Shown here: in pieces, positions 32,601-62,257 of the stretch
How positions within the stretch are numbered: the stretch's first letter is position 1
How the letters are laid out: the number at the start of each line of letters is the position of its first letter
From: Macrotrachela quadricornifera
Taxonomy: Eukaryota; Rotifera; Eurotatoria; Philodinida; Philodinidae
DNA: 64,000 nucleotides
Assembly (NCBI GenBank): GCA_022393335.1
Contig: JAJEKB010020027.1
Coordinates: forward strand, 82,435-146,434
Direction: 5' to 3'
The notes under the pieces: generated by a model
Seen by the model: only the letters and a program-made list of their open reading frames with translations
Told to the model about the DNA's origin: nothing
The model's database searches: none
Translations under genes and position numbers: made by a program

Positions 32601-35600
32601 TCGTTCTCGAATACCGCAACTAATCTACATTTCATCGAGTTTTTTTGAAACCGCGGCTTGTAACGGTAAACACATCGCGGTTTCGTTCAGGCATACCGCG
32701 GTAAATCTATATTTCGGTACAGTGTACTGTGGTCAAGTGCGGTTTATTTCGCACCCCGTGGTCTCAAAAGATGTAACCGTGGTCGTTATGGAACAACCGC
32801 GTCTAGCAGTGGTATCTACTTAAATCTTTTTCCGTAGGTAGTCCTTTCATCACTGATTAAAAATGAAACTTAAATATTTTATTAGATTTGAATCCAAACA
32901 CATATGACACTAACTAGTGTGTAGATATATCGATCCAATAAAAATACTAATAAAATTGTTAGAGATATAATGATTAGTTTTAGTATGAGAACCGTAATTG
33001 CATCAAGAATATACAATTGGTGCTAATTCTTTTATATAATTAGCTTCGACTTACCCCCTAAAGATATTTGAAAGCGGTCAAAAATTTGTCAACATCGAGC
33101 GTTGTCTTCGCGTTCACTGTCTGTATCAACTTAAATTAATGGTAGTTGAGCGTGCATCGACAAAAACAGCGATAATATGTAGACGTTACATCAACACCTA
33201 TTTCCTCTTGATTTTTGTAATGATTCCAAATGAAAACAGCATAAAAACTGTTTTTCTTCGACTCCGAAAGATTCGATGACCGTCAGCTATGCTTAAGTTA
33301 CGAAGTAATGAGAAACTTAAAAGATTAATTTCTCACTTAGAGTGCAGATACTGTGTAAATGGCGATATTCCGTTAAACGTGACTGAAACTTTTTGAGGTT
33401 AGAGACTCTAGATCTCTATAAATGACGTATTCTGTGAAGAGAGAGAAACGAATTTTGCAAGAAATTAAAATTTCCATTTGTAGATCAAACAACAGAAAGA
33501 GGCATAACGTTGAAAAAACGAATACGAAACGTGGTACTTTCTGCGTGGCACTCATTGATTAATATCAATCTTTTTCGAGCCGCAGCTCGACAACAGCAAG
33601 AAGATATCAAACGGCAACGTTGGACTACATGGATTTACATTTTTTCTCTTGGTTTATCACTTGTTATTCTCATGATTTATACAACAGTGAATGTTGAAAC
33701 AAAATCGGTAGACGTAGAAAGACCTTCGATTAAAACAGTGGAACAATTACAATTGCAGAGTACCGCTGGATTAATTTCATCTTTACAATGTCCATGTACA
33801 CAATTGACCACACCATATCGAGCATTTCTTCAACTACAACCAGTTTATCACCAGATATGCTCAAGTGATTTTGTGACAAGGCGTTGGATCGATTCTCTCA
33901 CCATTTCTGGTACCGGTAAGAAAATTTACTATCGAAAAGAAAAACTAATATTGTGAAAATTCTCACACGAGTGAGATATCCTCATTATATGGTGCGTATG
34001 TAGAAAATAAGCTGTTTGGAAATACAGGACGAGCAGAGATACCATAGTATTTTTTGAATTTTAGTGACACAGAATATAGTTAGAAGCAGGGAAAAGAATC
34101 TAGCATCGTCGAAGAATGAGATATAACTATTGTACGTGTAATCATACATTAGCTAGTGGATGCTGTTAAATGAGTTTACAAATTACTTTCAGAGTGAGAG
34201 ACAACTTCGAACCCAAAGTGATGACAAAAAAATCTTGAAAAATGTTCTTAGTGTTCAATGCTACTTTGTGATGCAACAGAAAAAAGTTGTTCCTAGATCC
34301 ACGGAACCTGATGAATCCTAAGATCGGCCAAGAATCGCTTCTTTTTCCTTACTAAGATCAATCAGACGTAGACATGCACTGAATTTGAACGTTCGGGTTC
34401 CGTCTGAAATGAATTTTCTCTAGTGAGTTATTTAATAACATTTGGATAACTTGAACCCGAACTTTGAAACTGAGCGTGAGCAGTTCGGCTCGAGCTTCAA
34501 ACTGTAGTTCAGGTTCGACGCATGCCTAATCAGAAACCAGTTGAATCCATTCAACGCTGCCAGGATCCATCACAAACCAGCAGAATTCCAAGGATCAACC
34601 AGGAGCCAATGGCATCCATCATGGGCCAGGAGGATCCATAGAATCTTAGAATGTTTTTTCCCCAGTTGTAATGTTCCGAAACTATCTCTTTCCTCTTCAG
34701 TTTCCTTGATAACAACGTATTGATTTTACATTGCACCTTTTACGTCTTTTCATCTACCTCTATATATCTTGTGTTTTGTATAAAAATATATCCGAGCATT
34801 GGATAATCAATTTGTATGAACCGCATATAATAGATGTTGCTTCAATGGAAAATAGAAACGTCGCAGTGTGAATAGGTAAGATCAAGGTCGACTAAAATGA
34901 CTGTGTGAAAGGTTTGTATTTGTTAGTTACCAAAGGTGGCAAGTCTCGATAGTAATCATATGATTATCTTAGTTTTATGTAGCCTTTTGTATGTGAGTAT
35001 TGCCTAAATACAATCTGATTTTGATTATATTCATGAGTAATAGGTACTTATATATGATTAATGCGGACACCTTGTACGTCTTATCTTTGTGAGAGTTTAG
35101 TGACGTCACAGCCGTTTGGTTTTAACGCTTTTTCTCTTTGATTCCAGGTAGCATCAAAAACAATTTAGATTTTTCAGCTAACGGACCGTTATTTCGGTTA
35201 CTACAAGCGCTATGCGTTCTGTCTAATGACACAATCATCAATTCACTGAAAAATCTTGCAGAAACACAACTAGTATCTACTCAGTTACTTACATATGACC
35301 TATTCAAGAGTCAACTGTCATCGATTGTTAACGATTTTAAAATAAGAACAATAAACAGTTTCTTACATTACCTCAGCCTTCAAAGCAATATCATATTTAT
35401 GAACCAAATAGCTAGTGGTGGAAGTAAAAACCATTTTATTCCACCATTTAACATTACAAACCCTGCTGTATTTTTTACCATCAGAAATTTGACCTTATTG
35501 AACTACACATGTTCCTGTGCAGATAATCTAAATTGTAAAATACCATCGGCCATTTACAAATTTATTAATGCCACATTTATTCCTATATATTATGTCGTTG

Positions 35601-37781
35601 GCTTTTATAGAGCTTGTTTTGCCGTACAAACGCTTATGGCATCCACCCTTGAATGCTTTTATGATGATCAAGATTGTATAAATGATATGATCAGAATTTT
35701 CAATAACCCAAGCCTCAACGTAACTCGATTAAGTTCGTCTTTCAATAGCAGCCGATTTCCAAGAGATACTACAATAGGACAAATACTTTCAGAGCTATTC
35801 ATTGAACATTGGATAAACTCATCGTCTTATTCATCATATTCTGAGCAATGTCAACCGGCATCTTGCACTTATAAGATTTTACGGCGTAACAGTGCAATAG
35901 AAACTATAACACGAATTTTGGCTCTAATTGGTGGACTTTCCATCTCTCTACGTTTCATAATTATTTTACTGGTCGCAGTATCAATTCGTATTATACATCA
36001 ACGACAACGACAAGAAGCGATACAACCAGGTAAGAGATTATTTATGAGGAAAGTATATTTCTTCCATATGTATTTAGACGCCTTAGAATTTCTTAGTTAT
36101 TATGTTAAATGAAAGCTAGTTCAAAATGGAATTTCGAAATATAATTTAACATTTTTAAAATGAGATTAAGCTATAATATTACGAAAAGTTTCAAATTTTT
36201 GATCCATAATTTCACATGTTCACATACTCAAATATAAACTTCTCAGCAAATGTTTTCGTTCTTCAGACTCTGTAGAACTCTCTTCGCTGATCATTTTGTT
36301 AAAAAAAAATTTTAAATTTGTTCAATAAATAACAATGCTACGGTCAAAACACAATCAGTCTCCAATTACTATGTCTGATGAAGCAAAAGTATTGATACAG
36401 GCAACTAGGACAGTGATTGTTTGGTAAAATTTAATAGAGTTCGAAATCCCATATATTTATTAGAGAAGAATTTATTCAATAAAACGTTTACAATTATTTT
36501 CAACAATCCATTTTTGTAGGCCATCCTGTACGACGAATGTATCTAAAGATTATCGACTGGATAAAAAAGTTCAATATATTTGACAATATAGAAAATAGAC
36601 ATACAGCTGAACATCAACGTCGATCTACACGTCTCTACTTAGTACTTATGATTATATCATTATTTATTCTTGTTCTTAACAATTGGTTGGGTTATTCTTC
36701 AAAAACCTTCACAGTGTCGAATCCAACTCTTGAACGATATCAACAATTTCAACAGCACTATGATCTGTCTGCTATCAGTTGTCCTTGTACTCAACCGTCT
36801 ATTCCTTATTCATCATTCATCAATATTACATTCGATCTGCACCAATTATGTGAGAGTCAATTCGTGTCTTATGCATATATACAACAATTATTTCAAATAT
36901 ATTATCAACTGAACGCCTCAGAAGCACAATCGACTGTATTTACGCTTCAAGGCACTATTTATACTCATTATCAAGCACTTTCAATTTTATGTCATGAAGC
37001 CATAGATGCTGTAATCGATGCTCGTCAACAATTTCTTACATCATCGATTATTTCCGCGTATATGATGAACATGGATTTCTTTAATAAACAAATAAATGCA
37101 ACACTATTTCAGTTTCAATCGAATCTTCCCAATTTATTTTTGAATTCGCTTCAACTCTTACGCAGTATGATCCGAGGAAACGGACTGGTCTCTGCTTATT
37201 CAACTAATTGGTATCCTAAATTACACAATCTCATGGTGGATTCAAGCGTGTATTTTCATGCACAATCGTATGGAAACTGTAGTTGTGCTACATCATCCAC
37301 ATGTACTCAGCCATCAATTCCTTTTATACCCGGTTACCTTGTCGGGTGCATACCACTTGAATCAGTTCTGCAAAGTACACTGGAATGTTTTTATGAACAG
37401 TCATGTCTCGATCTTGTAGACATCTCTTTAAATATGTCTTCATCTTCTCTTATCAGCCCATTGAACAAGAGTGCAACTCATTTTGCCATAGATCAAACCA
37501 TTAATTCAATTGTGCAAGAAATGTTTATTGAATCGTGGTCGTTCAATATTTCATACAATAATTTCTTCGAACAGTGTCAATCTCTGTCTTGTTATGTGAC
37601 AGTCGTTGAACAAAATGATATACTGATCGTCATTACTACGATACTAGGTCTTTATGGAGGTTTGACAACATTTTTTAAGCTCGTTGTACCATTATGCATA
37701 TCGTTTGTTGAAAAACTCATCAGAAAATTCAAACGACAAACGCAACCTACAGTGCATCCAACAGACGTGTTACATTCGTAA
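29627..37781 (+). CDS. Three-module membrane protein, predicted 1300 aa, four exons
   Basis: Exons: 29627-30953, 33484-33915, 35148-36029, 36520-37781. All three introns are phase 1 and GT..AG, and the joined length is 3903 nt in one frame. The start is M at 29627 (MEGETRNNAQ). Each module (about 1-442, 443-880, 881-1300) has an N-terminal membrane segment preceded by basic residues (STRVYIVLLFIFMFILLIY), an extracellular-like region with CPCTQ, a C ending ...ICxSxFVxxxWI, LC, an FFEQC-x5-C motif near the end, many N-glycosylation sites, and a C-terminal membrane segment (LGLYGGL-x-LRF-like). Module 2 has no suitable Met before its membrane segment and opens in frame at a splice acceptor, which supports fusion. 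If splicing fails, module 1 ends by read-through at 31012 and module 2 at 36112, so shorter isoforms are possible. Function unknown; six membrane passes are predicted. Confidence 0.65.
31190..32830. mobile_element. Intronic element rich in AACCGCGGTT words
   Basis: In intron 1 of the three-module gene. Clusters of GCGGTT / AACCGC / ACCGCGGT words occur at 31225-31365 and 32550-32815, with an AT-rich middle (31400-32540). The two clusters look like subterminal ends of one degenerate element. Open frames at 31419-31652 and 32545-32823 follow the repeat and are not supported as genes. No clear terminal repeat or target duplication defined. Confidence 0.5.
34364..34530. mobile_element. Small MITE with (T)TAGxCATGC termini, intronic
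   Basis: The left end AGACATGCACTGAATTTGAACG and the right end complement TTAGGCATGCGTCGAACCTG are imperfect inverted copies, with inner GTTCGGGTTC / GAACCCGAAC also mirrored. It lies in intron 2 of the three-module gene. The termini resemble those of the fold-back element at 10761-11434. The following 34530-34650 is a patch of degenerate CCAG(G/C)A(G/T)(G/C)ATCCAT words. Confidence 0.5.
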
Positions 37782-48094: not shown

Positions 48095-49049
48095 TGAATT
48101 TTGAAGATAATTTTCAATTGGAAATAGAACAAACATTTTCAATACGAGTCGAAGAACCAAATTTCACTAAAAAAAGTGGCATTTATTCATGTCTTCGACG
48201 TTTTTTCATTCTTGATGACACACCAAATTAAAAATTTGCATTTAATCTATTTGATTTTTTAAAATTTTTTGTACCATGTATGCGACCAGCACTTGATAAT
48301 ATTCGATTTCGTAATGTTAGTTGTATTCGATTGATGATAAAAACAACATGTTCGTATGATGATGCACTTAAAATGAAATGTTTCTCTTTCATGTATCCAC
48401 ATCAATTGTAGCGAATGGTGACTGCTAATCTTCTTCATATGAGTTGGTTTCATTTGGGATCTAATCTCTCAAAACAACTCTTATATGGTATTTTATTAGA
48501 ACGCAAATATGGTTCAGTTCATATAGCTATCATTTACTGGCTTTCCAAATTGGGTGCTAGTTTAGCTTTTGCAATGAAAAATAAAGAAGAATGTAAGTAA
48601 ATGTGAACATTTGAAATTAAAAATATTTGATTTTGCTTCAGTAGTTGACTGATGAAGTCTGGGATTTGTTTTTTTTCTTTAGCTACCTTTGGGGCTTCTG
48701 GTTCTCTGTATGGCCTAATGCTTTTTTCACTATGGATCGTCTTCTTGCAATGCAAGTCAACAGAGCTCGTCGTCTTTTCATACTCATGCAAATAGTTTTG
48801 CTGGTGTTATTTCCTGTGATCATTAGTGGAATTCTTATAATTATTTTCAAACTCAATGTAGCACATTCAGCTCATTTTGGTGGTGCCTTCGTGGGTTTTT
48901 TCTTTGGTTTTCTGTTACCATGGAATAATGAACATCAAATCTATCAAATAACATGTCGATTAATAGGATTTGTTTTTCTCTTCCTTTTCTTTATCATAAC
49001 TTTCACAATTTTTTTTGTAAGAGATACTCCAATTGATTACTTCATTTAA
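48095..49049 (+). pseudogene. Rhomboid-family protease, dead duplicate
   Basis: Closely related to the intact gene at 61173. Lesions: a deletion of about 94 bp removing the first membrane segment, with an in-frame TAA at 48239; TAG at 48409-48411 where the intact copy has Trp (LWRMVT); and loss of one base in a T-run after GASGSLYGLMLF (about 48725). The intron (about 48593-48682) and its borders are kept. The catalytic GASG and AHSAHFGG segments remain readable, but in different frames. Confidence 0.9.
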
Positions 49050-53820: not shown

Positions 53821-56800
53821 ATGAGTGCATCATTTGATTTTCGATCTGTCCTACTCAAAATACAAGATCTTCTATCAGATCAAGATCGACAACGACTACA
53901 TTTTCTTCTTGGTGAAGATGTTCCAAGACCGTTACGTGATGATTCTTCACTGACTGGAACACTTCGTGTATTTGAATCACTTTTTGATAAAGCAATTATT
54001 AGTCATCAAGATTGTGATTATCTCATTGAAGCATTCAACAAAATACAATGTCATGATGCGGCGAAACGTCTTAAAGGTTAGTTTCGTTTTAAGTATTCAG
54101 TTTTTTTGAAATATATGGATCTTTTCATATCTTTCAGAATACCAAAGAAATCGAGAAAAAAACAGCCAACGAAATTTCTCACTTCAGGACATTCTTTCAC
54201 AAGATAATGAAGATGACAAATTTTCTTCAACTAGTTTATCAGAATAGGAGAAATTACTTTCTATACAACTAGATTTTTTTTAGAACTTTTACCTGACAAA
54301 TTTGAATCGATACCGGTGCTAGATCTCTCGACTTCACTTGCAAAAGTTCCTCCTCATCAAATCAAACAAATGAATTCATCACCAACTAAGCATAATAGAC
54401 GGCACGAGGATAATGATAGATCTTCTTGGATGAATCGAATATTCAAACGATCTTTGCAGAACCGCAAATATATTTTAACGATTATCACTGTTCTGGTGGT
54501 GTTGGTTATCCTACTAGCCGTTTTATTGTCGAGAAAATTTCTTCAATCCAAGATGAAAGAGAATTCAGGTAAATTATTAGATATTCCAACGATTTGTTCT
54601 GCAATTGCCTCACTTATTCTGTTCTACTAATTAAAGTATCCAAAAACATAAAATGTTAGAGACTAGTTTTTATTAGAGACCGCATGAAATCAAATACTCA
54701 TCGCTCTCATTTTCGTTGACTATCATTACATTCTTCTTCTAATCCTATCGTTAACTTTTGTCTCTAAAAGGTTCATATATTCTATTGTTTTTCAAGTTAT
54801 GCATAACTTTGTTTTTTCAGCATTTTTTTCTTGCATGAAAAGAAAAAACGCTTACATGCCTGGTATCATTTTGTTGCAATCTCGCGAATTTCGCATTTCA
54901 CCAAAGTTCACTATGATATTGAGCTAATATTTATTTAACACTTGAATACAATTGTGTTTGAAATTCAAACGTAGTAGGATATATGAAACATGAGAATTTA
55001 TAGAAATTTTGAACAGAAATCATCAAGTCGAGCTTCTCTTTTCGTTCCAGAAGATAGTATTAGAAACCACTATCATCTTTATCGAGATATCCACTCTTGC
55101 TTCTAATGTTTCAACTTCATATATGAATCATACTGTTGGATAATCTACTGAAGAGGGAACTAGCCGAGGTGTCAAAAAGCTCTTTGATCAGGGATATGTT
55201 GGTTAGATAGGGCATAGCTAGGAGTGATATATCCTAAGTTACTACGGACGCAAGTTGAAAACTAGCTGCGATATCGAATTTTTACTAGAATTTGCCTATG
55301 AGACCCGTTTTGTCCTTAAAACCAAAGTTTTGAGTTTTGTCGTAAGACTTTACTCATATCAAGACCTCAGCCAGAGTAGTTCATTCACAAAGTTTCAGAA
55401 TTTTTGGACTAAGCATTTTCGAGATATGAGTCTGATAACATAAACATAGTTTTTTACGAATATTGTTGTATACATGGATATTTTGAAAACATTATATCTC
55501 GAAAATGCTTAGTCCAAAAATTCTGAAACTTTGTGAATGAACTACTCTGGTTGAGGCCTCGATATGGGCAAAGTCTTACGGCAAAACTCAAAACTTTGGT
55601 TTTAAGGAGAAAACGGGTCCCATAGGCAAATTCTAGTAAAAAGTCGATATCGCAGCTAGTTCTCAACTTGCACCCGTACTAACTTAGGGTATATCACTCT
55701 TAGCTATATTTCAGATGAACATGCAAATAATTTCAGTGCTATCATAAGTTGACAGCTATTTCATAATCTCCCCGAGATGGCTCCCTTTCTTTACAATCGG
55801 GATGCTTTTCTTCTACAAGTTTGTTAAACAAATGTACTACACTAATAAAGTTGGGCATTGTTAGCGAATCCTGAAAATTTCTTTCTATACTGTGGCTCCA
55901 TGATATATATGTACAGGGTGTTTCATAAGTTTTGAGGCACGACAAAATTCGTTTGTATTGATACATAGAACAATGTCTAATCATTATGTTTCTATATCAG
56001 TTTGGGTACTCGTGAGGGCCTTTCAAATGATACATAATTGAATAACATCTTGCCTTACAAGAATAAAAATATAAATATACGAATGTGTTGATAAAATTTT
56101 TTGAAATCAACAAAATAGGATGCATATAGTCTACAGTGGTAGTCTCCATCTTGACCGTCTTTGCGGCGTGAAAAAGTACTGGAAAGTCGGATTAAATCCT
56201 ACTTAAGTTTTGAAAAACTGAACATTTTCTGCAATTTTCCATTCCCTAGCTCAGGTGCACTGATCCTATTTGACCTTATCCCAGACGTAAGAGTATACCG
56301 TGCAAAGTTTGAACGCACTGGCTCTTATTGGAACGAAACGCATAAAGAACGGACAGATACGCATTCCTCTTCATATATTAGATCTAATGACAACTAATAT
56401 AATACAGAATTCCAATTTAGTCTAGAGATAAATTGGTTTGCTATAGACGTTATTTGCGATGATATTTTGCATAATTTTAGTCTAAAAATGTGTCAAATCC
56501 AAGCCTCTTGATCGATCTCGATTGTCTCAACTGAAGTATCGATGTTAACTAATCTCGGTCTCCATTAAGGCGAGTTAGACTTAGTCTGGATGTTGATTAC
56601 TCTAGTATAGAGGTATAACTGTTAGAATACTGCCGACAGATAATCTCTACAATGTTATACGAGTTATTCCTAGAGAACCTTTGAAAAGTTATACAAGTTA
56701 CTCCAAGATAGCTTATTAATATTAGATCAATTAGGTTCTGTCAAAGATTGTTTTACTAATTAATCATATTGGGACTATTATCGAACCATTATATCTTTGT

Positions 56801-59300
56801 ATGAGAGTGATTAAAATCGAGACTGAGTGTAACTTGCTCTGATTGAGGTCACTAGTAACTAAGAGTGAGAAGTTCAGTTTGGTCTTAGATTCGATATATT
56901 CATATTTCAATCTGGGATCGAGTGAATTACCAAATGATGAACGTTACTTATCCGTTCTAGGACTACAATTTTTTGGACACTCAAATATCAAATGGCTTGT
57001 TTTCAGAAGATGTTTCATGTATTGAATGGACGTAAAATTCTTTGACCAAAAACGTCTTTTCTCTTTTTCTCCGGATGCAATATTTTAGCTTCGATTCCAT
57101 ATCATTAAAAACATCTGAAATCATTCTTCTATAGAAACTGGTCAAAGTCGTTTTTCAAGCAAAATTTGGATTAATAAAAATATCTGAAACAGAATCTACG
57201 CCATTTTTTTAAGCTCGAATACACTTTTCTTTAGAAGAATAGAAGCTTAGCATATTTTGAATAAATAAAATACAATTGTTTGAAAGAAAAGGTTAAAATC
57301 GACTTGCATTTATAACAAGGTACAAAACTAATTTATTTTTCAAACTAAAAATCAAAGCGTCTTCTACTAATCAGATGAGAAGCATGTTATTTAAATCAGA
57401 TTGTTTTGGTCGTTTATTTACATGAGTCGTGTGGATCGTTACAAAAATCAGGACTATCTTTATGTGCATTATAAATAAACGATTCTATCGTATTTTATAT
57501 TTTAATTCTGCAAGCAATCCTTTGAAAACTTTTCTAATGAACTTTTCAGAACTGATACAAAAGATGTTCGAAACTAGTCATATAACGTAAATATTTTGAA
57601 TATGAAATCACTTTAGCTTCAATTTTTTTGTAGAATCTAATAAAACAAGTACCACACAAGCGCTTACGCAGACATTGGTAGAATCATCACCTGCAACTGG
57701 TAAGTTTCATTCTCAATCATAGAATATGAATTAAATTAAATATAAAATTGATCTATGAGAATTATAATCTATTTCAGTCAGTAGATGGTTATGGCGAAGA
57801 GATTAAGTAAAAAAAAGAAGGAGTTTTGATTTTTCTTATCTTAAAAATTACATAGAAAATATGGTAGACAGTAGTTAAAAAAATCCCTATTTCCAACAGA
57901 CATAGAAACAAAGAATAAATTACTGTCTTGTAGATCTTAAATCAATTAGAAAAAGTTCAAGTTAAATATACGATAGTTATTCTCATCCTCGTGTTCTTTC
58001 CATAGGAAAAAATGTCACTAATTCTGAAAGAGTATTTTTACACATAGCAACTAATCGATTGGTTGGCAGAATCAACAAGTATTGAAAATTGTTTTTGATA
58101 TTGAAAATAAGGTTGGTACTCTTTTTTCTTGCTCTCATTTTTAATAACGTACGCGAGCATGTGGACACATATTCATATATTCTACAGAGAGCCGAAAAAA
58201 TTTCTCGAACAATTCTGAAGGATATCATGTAAAACATATGACAAACGTCTTAAATAAACATCTTTGTCGTTTCATTCTATTCGGCTGAATGATATATACC
58301 CTCTTTTGAGGAGAATTTTCAAATCTCTTCTTAAATAAATAGACGTATCTTTACAATTGTTCGTCTAATATTGATATATATTGATGTTTAGTCACAACAA
58401 CTATCGCTCCTCCTCGTACCGGTAAGTAGACATGCTTAATAACTATAACAAGGATAGATATTTTTCGAGAATGAAATCATTTTATTGTTCTCTAGAGTTC
58501 AGCGAGGGTAAAACCTGTGGATGCGATCAATGGTGTCGTGAAAATGGTAGACGATTTGGAGTATGCGGAGACGGACATACATGCATTTGTACGATGAAAG
58601 AAGTAACAAAAGAAGATATTGGTAAGCATAAACGACGTCTCCAGACGTAGAAATAAATCAAATCATTCATTAATATTAGGTGACCATTGTACATGTGATG
58701 AATGGTGTCGAAATCGTCGTAATTATATTGGTGGTATTTGTGGTGATGGATACACTTGTATTTGTCAATCACCAAACACATCTTATATAGGTTAATCTTG
58801 TTAGCTTCAAAAATTATATGATCATTCTACTCGGTTTTATTTTAGAATTTCCAGAAGTAGATATACGACTTGGAGATATGTTGGAATATGATTGTGCTGA
58901 TATTGGTAAGGCACGTGCTTTTGCATCGGTGTTGATTGATGGACCGATGAAAGCTGGAGTGTATCGAGATGATAAGAAGAGATTTTTGTTAAAAAACTTG
59001 TCAAAATCATACATCGAAAAACTTTCACCATGTTCTGCTTGTACTTTGTTCCATTATAGATATCCTGAACGAATTATAGTCGAAGGTGCGGGTATAGATC
59101 AATCCCAAGGTGATATCGCTCACTATGATTGTCCGAATATTGCCGTGGCAAGAGTTTTCGCTTATTCATTAATCGACAGTCCGATAAAAGGTGCGAATTA
59201 TCGTAATGACTTCAAACGTTTTTGGCTCAAAAATTTGTCGAGTCCAAACATTGGCAAACCAGTTTTGGATCCTCCATCCACTATGTTTTATTTTCAGTAG
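53821..59300 (+). CDS. Death-effector-like / TM / defensin-like receptor candidate, eight exons, 474 aa
   Basis: Exons: 53821-54076, 54138-54233, 54284-54568, 57634-57699, 58392-58421, 58496-58621, 58680-58790, 58846-59300. Every intron is phase 1, and the sum (1425 nt) is one frame. Residues about 5-83 resemble a death-effector domain (FRSVLLKIQDLLSDQDRQRL, HFLLGEDVPRPL, LFDKAIISHQDCDYLIEAF). Residues 180-199 are one membrane segment (YILTIITVLVVLVILLAVLL) after a basic stretch. Then comes a Thr/Ser-rich stalk (exons 4-5). Exons 6 and 7 each encode one six-Cys module of the pattern C-x-C-x3-C...GxC-x5-C-x-C, as in CS-alpha-beta defensins. Exon 8 holds two ~70 aa repeats sharing YDC-x2-I...AR-x-FA...LID-x-P and KRF-x-LKNLS. 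Topology is likely type II with the DED in the cytosol. A role in pathogen sensing or cell-death signalling is inference. Intron 3 (3 kb) holds a fold-back element. Confidence 0.65.
55214..55706. mobile_element. Fold-back element inside intron 3, ~490 bp
   Basis: Arms 55214-55438 and 55487-55706 are inverted copies at about 90% identity by eye (GAATTTTTACTAGAATTTGC against GCAAATTCTAGTAAAAAGTC). Both arms read as the same peptide on opposite strands (CDIEFLLEFAY / CDIDFLLEFAY), which is a result of symmetry. Inserted within the long intron of the DED/defensin-like gene. Confidence 0.9.
55707..57633. other. Remainder of intron 3
   Basis: Contains a possible mariner-type end (TGTACAGGGTGTTTCATAAG at about 55910; a related TGTCTCATAAGTTTTG word at about 49288). 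No partner end found. Open frames at 56161-56397 and 56843-57025 have no recognisable content. Confidence 0.4.
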
Positions 59301-59680
59301 AACTTCATTTCGACTATGATCATTATTGTCAATAAAACAGTTTTGTTTGTTTGGAAAAACTATTATATTTTAATAAACATAATCGATCTCAATCAAAAGT
59401 TTTGTGAAATATTGTAGTCATCACTTGCTAGTTAGATAAAATCAATTTCGTTTTTCTTTCTATAAATGGCTTACGCTTGATCACATTTGATAATACAGTG
59501 TTTAGAAGTGTTTGTATGGAGAAAGTAGTTGATATAGGAAAAATTTCTCTATCGTTTCTATGCTATTTGATCACTATTGAACTAATATCGTAATGATAAA
59601 ATTTGGATAACAACTGCTTTTGTTGAATGCTAGTTCGTTACAGTAGACCATAACAGATATTCTACTTTTGTATTTCGCTT
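59301..59680. other. 3' region of the DED/defensin-like gene with TE remnant
   Basis: AATAAAACA at about 59331 could be part of a polyadenylation signal. 59500-59660 (CTATGCTATTTGATCACT..., CAACTGCTTTTGTTGAATGC) is a diverged relative of the inner arm of the fold-back at 17749-18669 (CTATGCTATTTGATCACA). Confidence 0.45.
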
Positions 59681-60794: not shown

Positions 60795-61172
60795 TTACTA
60801 AATGGTTAAAATCTCATTTGAAAGTTATAATATGTTTGACTTTTTATTGTTTTTATTTGTGTTGTAAAATATGGACTATTTATCTGATTGGTTACCATAT
60901 ATAAGTCTTATTTTCTACAAAATAGAAAGCACTGAGGTACCGATCATATTGGACTAAAATAAATGCTCGTTTTGGAGCAGAACCAAAAGAAAAATATTAT
61001 AACGACGTGTCAGTCCCCTTTTATTTTGCCATAAAAAAAGAAAAGGAAGAGTGTATGTCGTCTTTTTTTATATAGGTAATAAAGAAAGAGAAAAAACGAA
61101 CGCAAGTAGTATTATATTTTTAGTCTAATGGCATAACGGAAGAAAAGATTTTAAAATATATCTATTAGAATA

Positions 61173-62257
61173 ATGAATTCTGACAATAATTTTCAATTGG
61201 AAATAGAACAACCACTTTCAATACGAGTCGAAGAACCAACTTCCACTAAAAAAACTGGCATCTGCTCATGTCTTCGACGTTTTTTCAACCTTGATGACTC
61301 ACCAAATCAAAAGCATCATCGTCCATTATTTATCATTACCATGTGTATTTTACATATTTTCATTATTCTCTTAACTTATATCAATATCAATTGGAGAAAT
61401 CAAAAAATTGCACTTAATCTATTTGATTTTTTAAAATTTTTTGTACCATGTATGCAACCAGCACCTGATGATATTCGATTTCGTAATGTTAGTTGTATTC
61501 GATCGATGATAAACACAACATGTTCTTATGATGATGAACTTAAAAGGGAATGTTTCTCTTTCATGTATCCACATCAATTGTGGCGAATGGTAACTGTTAA
61601 TCTTCTTCATATGAGTTGGTTTCATCTGGGATCTAATCTCTCAAAACAACTCTTATATGGTATTTTATTAGAACGCAAATATGGTTCAGTTCGTATCGCT
61701 ATTATTTATTGGCTTTCCGAATTGGGTGCTAGCTTAGGTTACATGGTGAAAAACAGACACAAATGTAAGTAAATGTAAATATTTGAAATTAAGAATACTT
61801 GATCTTACTTATTTTGTCTGTCAGATACGTTCAGTAATTGACTGATGAAGTCTGTGATTGGTTCTTTTTTTCTTTAGCTAGCATTGGAGCTTCTGGTTCT
61901 CTTTATGGTCTAATGCTTTTTTTAACTATGGATCGTCTTCTTGCAATGCAAATCAACAGAGCTCATCGTCTTTTCATATTCATGCAAATAGCTTTGCTGG
62001 TATTATTTCCTATTAGCATTAGTGGAATTCTTATAATTATTTTCAAACTCAATGTAGCACATTCAGCTCATTTTGGTGGCGCTTTCGTGGGTTTTTTCTT
62101 TGGTTTTCTATTACCATGGAATAATGAACATCAGATCGGTCAATTGACATGTCGATTAATAGGATTTGTTTTTCTCTTCCTCTTCTTTATCATAACTTTC
62201 ACAATTTTTTTTGTCAGAGATACTCCAATTGACTACTCTATTTTATATAAACCCTAG
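61173..62257 (+). CDS. Rhomboid-family intramembrane serine protease, intact
   Basis: Exon 1 61173-61764, exon 2 61878-62257, 113-bp phase-1 intron; 323 aa. A cytosolic N-terminus (about 1-50, ending in a basic CLRRFF region) is followed by TM1 (about 51-68, PLFIITMCILHIFIILLTYI), a loop with four Cys, then the rhomboid core: WRMVTVNLLHMSWFHLGSN, GASGSLYG with catalytic Ser203, and AHSAHFGGA with catalytic His262 and GG. Further hydrophobic helices end at about 310. Rhomboids cleave membrane proteins within or near their transmembrane helix. Catalytic dyad and oxyanion Asn/His motifs are all visible, so activity is expected. Substrate is unknown. The 5' flank and gene are duplicated at 47.7-49.0 kb. 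Confidence 0.85.

Follow-up and report, generated by a model that had tools for sequence, protein, structure and literature searches.

A bdelloid rotifer gene predicted to join a death effector domain to defensin-like modules across a membrane, and a candidate receptor family with exchanged ectodomains

The window analyzed here is a stretch of 64,000 nucleotides from the bdelloid rotifer Macrotrachela quadricornifera (GenBank assembly GCA_022393335.1, contig JAJEKB010020027.1, forward strand positions 82,435 to 146,434). At positions 53,821 to 59,300 it holds a gene whose predicted product carries a death effector domain (DED), one transmembrane (TM) segment, a stalk, a pair of six-cysteine modules and a C-terminal domain that is internally duplicated. 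Sequence comparison places this gene in what appears to be a family, so far found in bdelloids only, with a constant DED-linker-TM part and an exchanged ectodomain. On balance we lean slightly towards a type II receptor, with a cytosolic DED, a TM segment, a stalk and an ectodomain of defensin-like modules and an orphan domain, in which clustering of the ectodomain would lead to DED signaling; orientation, ligand, clustering and output are the parts of this reading that we infer.

Eight exons joined over phase-1 introns give a single frame of 474 codons, as a first-pass annotation made from the letters of the window had proposed. The seven introns, with lengths of 61, 50, 3065, 692, 74, 58 and 55 bp in order, are all GT-AG and all in phase 1. 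The order of parts that it gave, from the DED and the TM segment over the stalk and two cysteine modules on exons of their own to the duplicated C-terminal domain, was likewise recovered, and its claim of exon shuffling stands in so far as phase-1 exons suit shuffling. The features are as follows.

53821..54076, forward strand: exon 1, start codon and most of the DED (the whole DED being residues 7-89)
54138..54233, forward strand: exon 2, symmetrical 1-1, with the last part of the DED and cytosolic linker; donor GTTTAT
54284..54568, forward strand: exon 3, cytosolic linker and TM segment (residues 180-200, 54469-54531)
54569..57633, forward strand: intron 3, 3065 bp, GT-AG, phase 1, with stretches recognizable in copy B of contig C4521
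55214..55707, no strand: inverted repeat within intron 3, arms 55214-55427 and 55494-55707, 93% complementary
57634..57699, forward strand: exon 4, Thr/Ser stalk
58392..58421, forward strand: exon 5, Thr/Pro stalk
58496..58621, forward strand: exon 6, first six-cysteine module (residues 252-276)
58680..58790, forward strand: exon 7, second six-cysteine module (residues 290-315)
58846..59300, forward strand: exon 8, C-terminal domain duplicated as the repeats 58848-59060 and 59061-59297; stop TAG at 59298-59300
59331..59336, forward strand: AATAAA, candidate poly(A) signal 30 bases downstream of the stop, a hexamer common in such an AT-rich stretch

The donor of exon 2 looks weak, skipping of this exon would leave the frame intact, and its linker resembles, in a comparison by eye, the linker of the Rotaria proteins P0001-P0003.

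Residues 7-89 match PF01335 above the Pfam cut-off (39.2 bits against 35.9, E-value 8e-10). An AlphaFold model of a relative, P0008, rather than of the window protein itself, has six N-terminal helices with a predicted local distance difference test score (pLDDT) of 71-88 by blocks. In Foldseek, the top four matches of P0008 are the DEDs of FADD/caspase-8/cFLIP and PEA-15, followed by CARD and PYD; for the whole chain, the best matches had E-values of 0.3-1 and none of the 76 matches lay at 0.001. The DED proposed at first reading is thus upheld by the Pfam match and by the death fold of a relative. A single strong hydrophobic segment, residues 180-200, with a mean hydropathy of 3.47 where no more than 2.93 came up in 1000 shuffles, agrees with the single-pass membrane protein that had been claimed. 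Because the same cysteine modules occur in secreted-type proteins, the C-terminal side is taken as the outer one, which would make this a type II protein with the modules probably outside the cell. Short basic stretches are read in the sequence on both sides of the TM segment, and they would also suit a protein of the endoplasmic reticulum or another inner membrane, with the DED acting there as has been proposed for BAP31-like proteins; we regard this as improbable, since the glycan-binding-type ectodomains of the family and the apparently secreted modules suit the cell surface better.

The two modules in question follow the pattern C-x-C-x3-C-x9-11-C-x5-C-x-C, roughly, with one residue either way and with a conserved W and G. 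An alignment was made of 18 hand-picked, complete-looking modules, leaving out near-copies, one further module of contig C4660, one with a stop and the degenerate modules of C906 and C4896; none of the six cysteines varies across the 18, and each of these modules has the CxxxC, GxC and CxC spacing of cysteine-stabilized alpha-beta (CS-alpha-beta) defensins. In a PDB profile search, 6 of 17 matches were chains of defensins, lucifensin or sapecin, in register and at E-values of 0.09-0.95, and unrelated chains came up at like values, for example coronavirus spike chains at 0.095-0.65. With these defensins, presumably of insect origin, the window modules share CxxxC ... GxC ... CxC in register, but their first cysteine lies one residue from the second, hence the usual N-loop is missing, and the similarity is not significant. 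Neither Pfam nor NCBIfam gave a defensin family match for the window modules, and in the AlphaFold model of P0008 module 1 is helix-strand-strand (pLDDT about 54-80 by blocks) while module 2 lies mostly below 50. Of the earlier claim that these are CS-alpha-beta defensins, the cysteine spacing has therefore held and a significant similarity to defensin families has not been found; the fold itself is plausible and the name “defensin-like” is fair, whereas defensin identity goes beyond the evidence.

Elsewhere in the same genome such modules stand directly behind apparent signal peptides (by eye) on contigs C4308 and C4660, and they also occur in the Rotaria matrixin proteins P0012 and P0094; because of these secreted-type contexts, behind or within which they are found, the six-cysteine units appear to be mobile secretory modules. 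On C4308 (L043, 1134265 onward) an apparent signal peptide is followed by a module of net charge +6, an intron and a second module of +3, making the product a candidate for a secreted defensin-like small peptide. The locus on C4660 (L042, minus strand, about 1342300-1343720) combines an apparent signal peptide, four modules, one of which has a stop in this copy, and a BSP peptidase part (PF04450, 89.4 bits, cut-off 23.8).

These modules bear on the question whether the ectodomain is itself the active part, a tethered or shed defensin-like effector or ligand, with the DED controlling trafficking or a death feedback in the producing cell. Type II TNF-like ligands get shed, and the inferred type II topology, the modules of the same type behind apparent signal peptides, one of them with a charge of +6, and the rhomboid-protease genes on both sides in the duplicated unit would all fit. 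The rhomboid-family reading frames (PF01694) lie at 48645-49046 and 61155-62254, and as part of the repeated unit they are present in C4521 too; but their adjoining position is no evidence of cleavage, the modules of the window have a net charge of 0, and relatives with NHL, jacalin, DM9 or motif-less GH16 have ectodomains that resemble binders, not effectors. We consider an effector role unlikely.

Exon 8, the last part of the predicted ectodomain, encodes 151 residues with an internal duplication, the halves being 46% identical. It has no Pfam or NCBIfam family match, two PHROG matches (E-values 0.14 and 0.21) and one phage match in tblastn (5), and its single-sequence AlphaFold model is uninformative (pLDDT 33.7). 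The best PDB profile match of the repeats (58848-59297) was the phage endolysin chain 4cu2, a cell-wall-binding end, not significant at an E-value of 0.078, and kinship with endolysins was dropped as too weak for use. With residues 244-474 as the query, a protein search limited by length yielded two proteins, both matched via the cysteine modules. The own genome has three exon 8 matches, that of the window and two on C4521, each behind exons with cysteine modules, and among these three the window copy is the only one found whole and compact. Judged by these searches, exon 8 appears to be an orphan domain.

Whether all eight exons form one gene was examined on two further contigs. C4521 has a counterpart of the window left of the intron-3 repeat (93% identity) at about 1277.5-1279.6 kb and a counterpart of the window right of it (92-98%) at 1237.2-1243.6 kb, upstream of the left one. 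The break between window and C4521 falls at the inverted repeat (C4521 about 1237244 and 1279263-1279608), which points to a rearrangement or an assembly join at the repeat in one of the two contigs. Between the two halves lies the diverged copy B, with exons 1, 2, pieces of 3, 5, 6, 7 and 8 in order and several recognizable stretches of intron 3; no match of exon 4 was found in this copy, which may be decaying. Contig C4896 carries a compact five-exon gene from 34712 to the stop at 36729, with DED, linker, TM segment, coil and two cysteine modules, and its GT-AG introns measure about 50 to 600 bp. The model search at this locus ranked 64 models by likeness to P0008; since it allowed phase-1 junctions only and the donor of exon 2 is uncertain, intron phase is not an independent result here. 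Among database entries, the predicted proteins P0008, P0016 (Adineta ricciae) and P0018 (A. vaga, I4U23_012031) have the same order of DED, linker, TM segment and two modules; unlike the window protein, they stop after the second module, without the duplicated domain of exon 8. Just before the intact gene of C4896, at 33064-34242 (L035), lies a TM-coil-Cys-Cys copy with a merely degenerate DED-like stretch, and a broken DED-TM-Cys copy follows at about 43.3-44.6 kb; together the copies look like a small decaying tandem array.

The exons could alternatively stem from two neighboring genes, or from an assembly join, namely a DED-TM gene whose end lies after exon 3, plus a separate gene for the cysteine modules. 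Intron 3 is 3 kb long and contains an inverted repeat with arms of 214 nt, the half-counterparts on C4521 stand about 37 kb apart in reversed order with the break at the repeat, and continuing past the exon-3 donor yields 20 more residues up to a stop at 54628-54630, which is overlapped by an ATTAAA at 54630. Against this, the downstream half alone would make little sense because no start codon with a signal peptide was seen by eye at its head, copy B holds both halves in order, the C4896 paralogue has the DED-TM-Cys-Cys order with short introns, and the three database proteins share it. We therefore hold two genes to be highly improbable and read the window locus as one gene, the compact paralogue being the strongest point; the joining of DED and cysteine modules across a membrane, as first proposed, is corroborated by the paralogue and by the three proteins. 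Some database relatives are also short, like the putative read-through form, and a short DED-TM product ending at 54630 is possible. Compared with the nearest C4521 halves, the window shows a ratio of nonsynonymous to synonymous substitution rates (dN/dS) of 0.25-0.26 for exons 1-3 (210 codons) and 0.19-0.23 for exons 4, 6, 7 and 8 (248 codons), which fits constraint on both halves of the gene, weaker or lost in copy B.

Homologues were found in other bdelloids: protein searches gave 97 distinct proteins, and wherever an organism is named it is a Rotaria or an Adineta. With a DED profile made of the window sequence and six of these proteins, the domain is found in 93 of the 97. For manual sorting, the precomputed Pfam or source names of the proteins were used, and a hydropathy scan of our own looked for a hydrophobic segment at most 170 residues after the DED. 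By ectodomain, the counts are the following.

NHL: 34 proteins, DED in 34, hydrophobic segment in 21
Jacalin: 17 proteins, DED in 17, hydrophobic segment in 7
GH16: 7 proteins, DED in 7, hydrophobic segment in 6
DM9: 3 proteins, DED in 3, hydrophobic segment in 3
TPR: 1 protein, DED in 1, hydrophobic segment in 1
Cysteine-module pair: 7 proteins, DED in 3, hydrophobic segment in 3
Other or none: 28 proteins, DED in 28, hydrophobic segment in 16

A segment after the DED is thus present in 57 of the 93 members with a DED. When 10 of the 97 were rescanned with Pfam, NHL, GH16, DM9 and TPR were confirmed and jacalin was over the cut-off in three of four, and the DEDs of all ten lay below the Pfam cut-off (25.7-32.0 bits, E-values of 1e-5 to 1e-7). 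The catalytic motif of GH16, E-x-D-x-E, is missing from all seven GH16 members (P0032-P0035, P0037, P0038 and P0014), as would be expected for a binding rather than a cutting domain; beta-glucan recognition proteins, too, are not known to carry the motif. Three entries, P0003, P0007 and P0014, may be merged gene models, that is, gene-prediction fusions: by precomputed families or our own reading, their DEDs are paired with parts that are transposase-like, serine-hydrolase-like and GH16, with no clear TM segment after the DED; P0014 was counted under GH16, the other two under other.

A similar exchange is indicated within the genome of M. quadricornifera itself. It has 36 Pfam DED matches, 15 of them over the cut-off, and 45 places similar to the DED of the window (by eye among 56 matches). 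Six further DED loci were read, the exons being assigned to single genes by order and spacing alone. Behind a DED exon and a TM exon stands a jacalin exon on C1695 (L005, 10279 onward; 36.6 bits, cut-off 22) and a GH18 exon on C4681 (L046/L008, 798657 onward; 62.7 bits, cut-off 29.6), and on C4805 a different cysteine-rich stretch follows DED and TM segment. The acidic catalytic motif of GH18 was not found in the scanned stretch of C4681, where introns may hide it, and it is possible that this member binds chitin. On C555, the exon behind DED and TM segment has no Pfam match; it had been considered jacalin-like, and a Pfam rescan gave no jacalin match. The sequence of C4526 is masked after the DED. 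Of a different type is C4629 (L001/L003, 4457-5175, minus strand), where two tandem DED exons precede exons resembling the start of a DExD/H helicase (GGGKT, DECH); the one helicase exon scanned gave DEAD at 17.6 bits against a cut-off of 26 (E-value 0.003), and the locus is possibly a RIG-I-like sensor with DEDs replacing the CARDs.

For the mechanism, we propose that a ligand, perhaps a microbial or other glycan or a surface structure, would cluster the ectodomains, that the clustered tails would meet and nucleate a DED-DED assembly, and that this assembly would recruit a DED partner and pass on death or defense signaling. DEDs work through assembly with other DEDs. The sensing of microbes and the signaling of death, both part of the first-pass reading, are putative. 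The immune reading is drawn from the company of ectodomains, and in its widest form, which we advance tentatively and at somewhat less than even chances, the family would be a class of pattern-recognition receptors of bdelloids' own: a type II DED-TM chassis with phase-1-shuffled lectin (jacalin, DM9), motif-less GH16, GH18 chitinase-like, NHL and defensin-like ectodomains, signaling by direct DED assembly with no separate Death-domain adaptor. The family might alternatively serve cell-cell recognition or developmental signaling and not immunity, since the NHL propeller, its commonest ectodomain (34 of 97), is a fold with no specific tie to microbe binding. On the other side, ectodomains of the lectin, DM9, GH16-like and defensin-like kinds are typically those of microbe recognition, and the copies in the own genome duplicate and decay, so that we consider such a role unlikely.

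Several observations weigh against the receptor reading of the window gene. In helix 6 of its DED, C-H-D-A is read by eye, not the charged R-x-D-L motif of canonical DEDs, which is present in other DEDs of the own genome (C4629, C287); with its C-x-D-A, the surface of the window DED may differ from the canonical one. The zero net charge of the window modules is unlike that of most membrane-active defensins, and 36 of the 93 DED members lack a hydrophobic segment after the DED on the simple scale used. As to the gene itself, the nearest halves on C4521 are unjoined, with the order reversed and about 37 kb from exon 8 to exon 1, exon 3 of copy B carries an insertion of about 3.4 kb, and dN/dS between the window and copy B is 0.58-0.61 for exons 1-2 (116 codons) and 0.54-0.64 for exons 6-8 (226 codons). 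With regard to partners, C14 (caspase-like) matches number 153, with 150 of 168 candidates scored; among the matches listed, and with coordinates compared by eye, no C14 is closer than 10 kb to a DED place, the nearest pairs being about 14 kb apart on C4071 and about 24 kb on C4681, so that no DED-caspase was seen.

A receptor of this build resembles TNFR/Fas-type death receptors in that it would signal from the cell surface through a death-fold tail on clustering. Those receptors, however, are type I and have TNFR cysteine-rich domains and a Death domain, not a DED; a Pfam scan of the window protein (E-value up to 10) found no TNFR cysteine-rich repeats and no Death domain, nor did it give TRADD-N. 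The nearest published case found is an expansion in the oyster Crassostrea virginica, with a cysteine-rich ectodomain, TM segment, DED and TRADD-N (PMC8195603). Both combine a TM segment with a DED predicted inside the cell and a cysteine-rich part outside it, in a lineage-specific expansion, but in the window protein the DED is N-terminal and precedes the TM segment, TRADD-N is absent and the variable part is the ectodomain. In amphioxus, hybrid innate receptors have arisen as new death-fold combinations by domain shuffling; those given in the available text are TNFR-caspase, DED-NACHT and others, not DED-TM-lectin or DED-TM-defensin-like (PMC2575513).

For rotifers, a survey of lectins admitted only proteins with a signal peptide or secretion score, excluded TM proteins and reported one canonical jacalin protein, and by these criteria the proteins of the present family would go uncounted (PMC8878817). 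Large multigene expansions in A. vaga, NHL included, are described as likely defense or signaling genes, and the available part of that source gives no domain combinations for the expanded families (PMC3846280). MLKL-like necroptosis proteins have been described in A. vaga without RIPK (PMC11476962), so that a death output may exist in bdelloids; a link of these proteins to DED-TM receptors would be an inferred one. In the literature searched, which covered few subscription papers, no account of a bdelloid DED-TM family was found, and none of the membrane sensors of bdelloids.

It is an open question how bdelloids, asexual for so long, withstand fungi and other pathogens; the family described here looks, from its sequences, like an unrecognized set of sensors. 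If the receptor reading is true, DEDs would act directly within membrane receptors whose binding part is swapped, a defensin-like module would serve as a sensor, and a family with one signaling end and exchangeable outer parts would provide candidate receptors of bdelloids.

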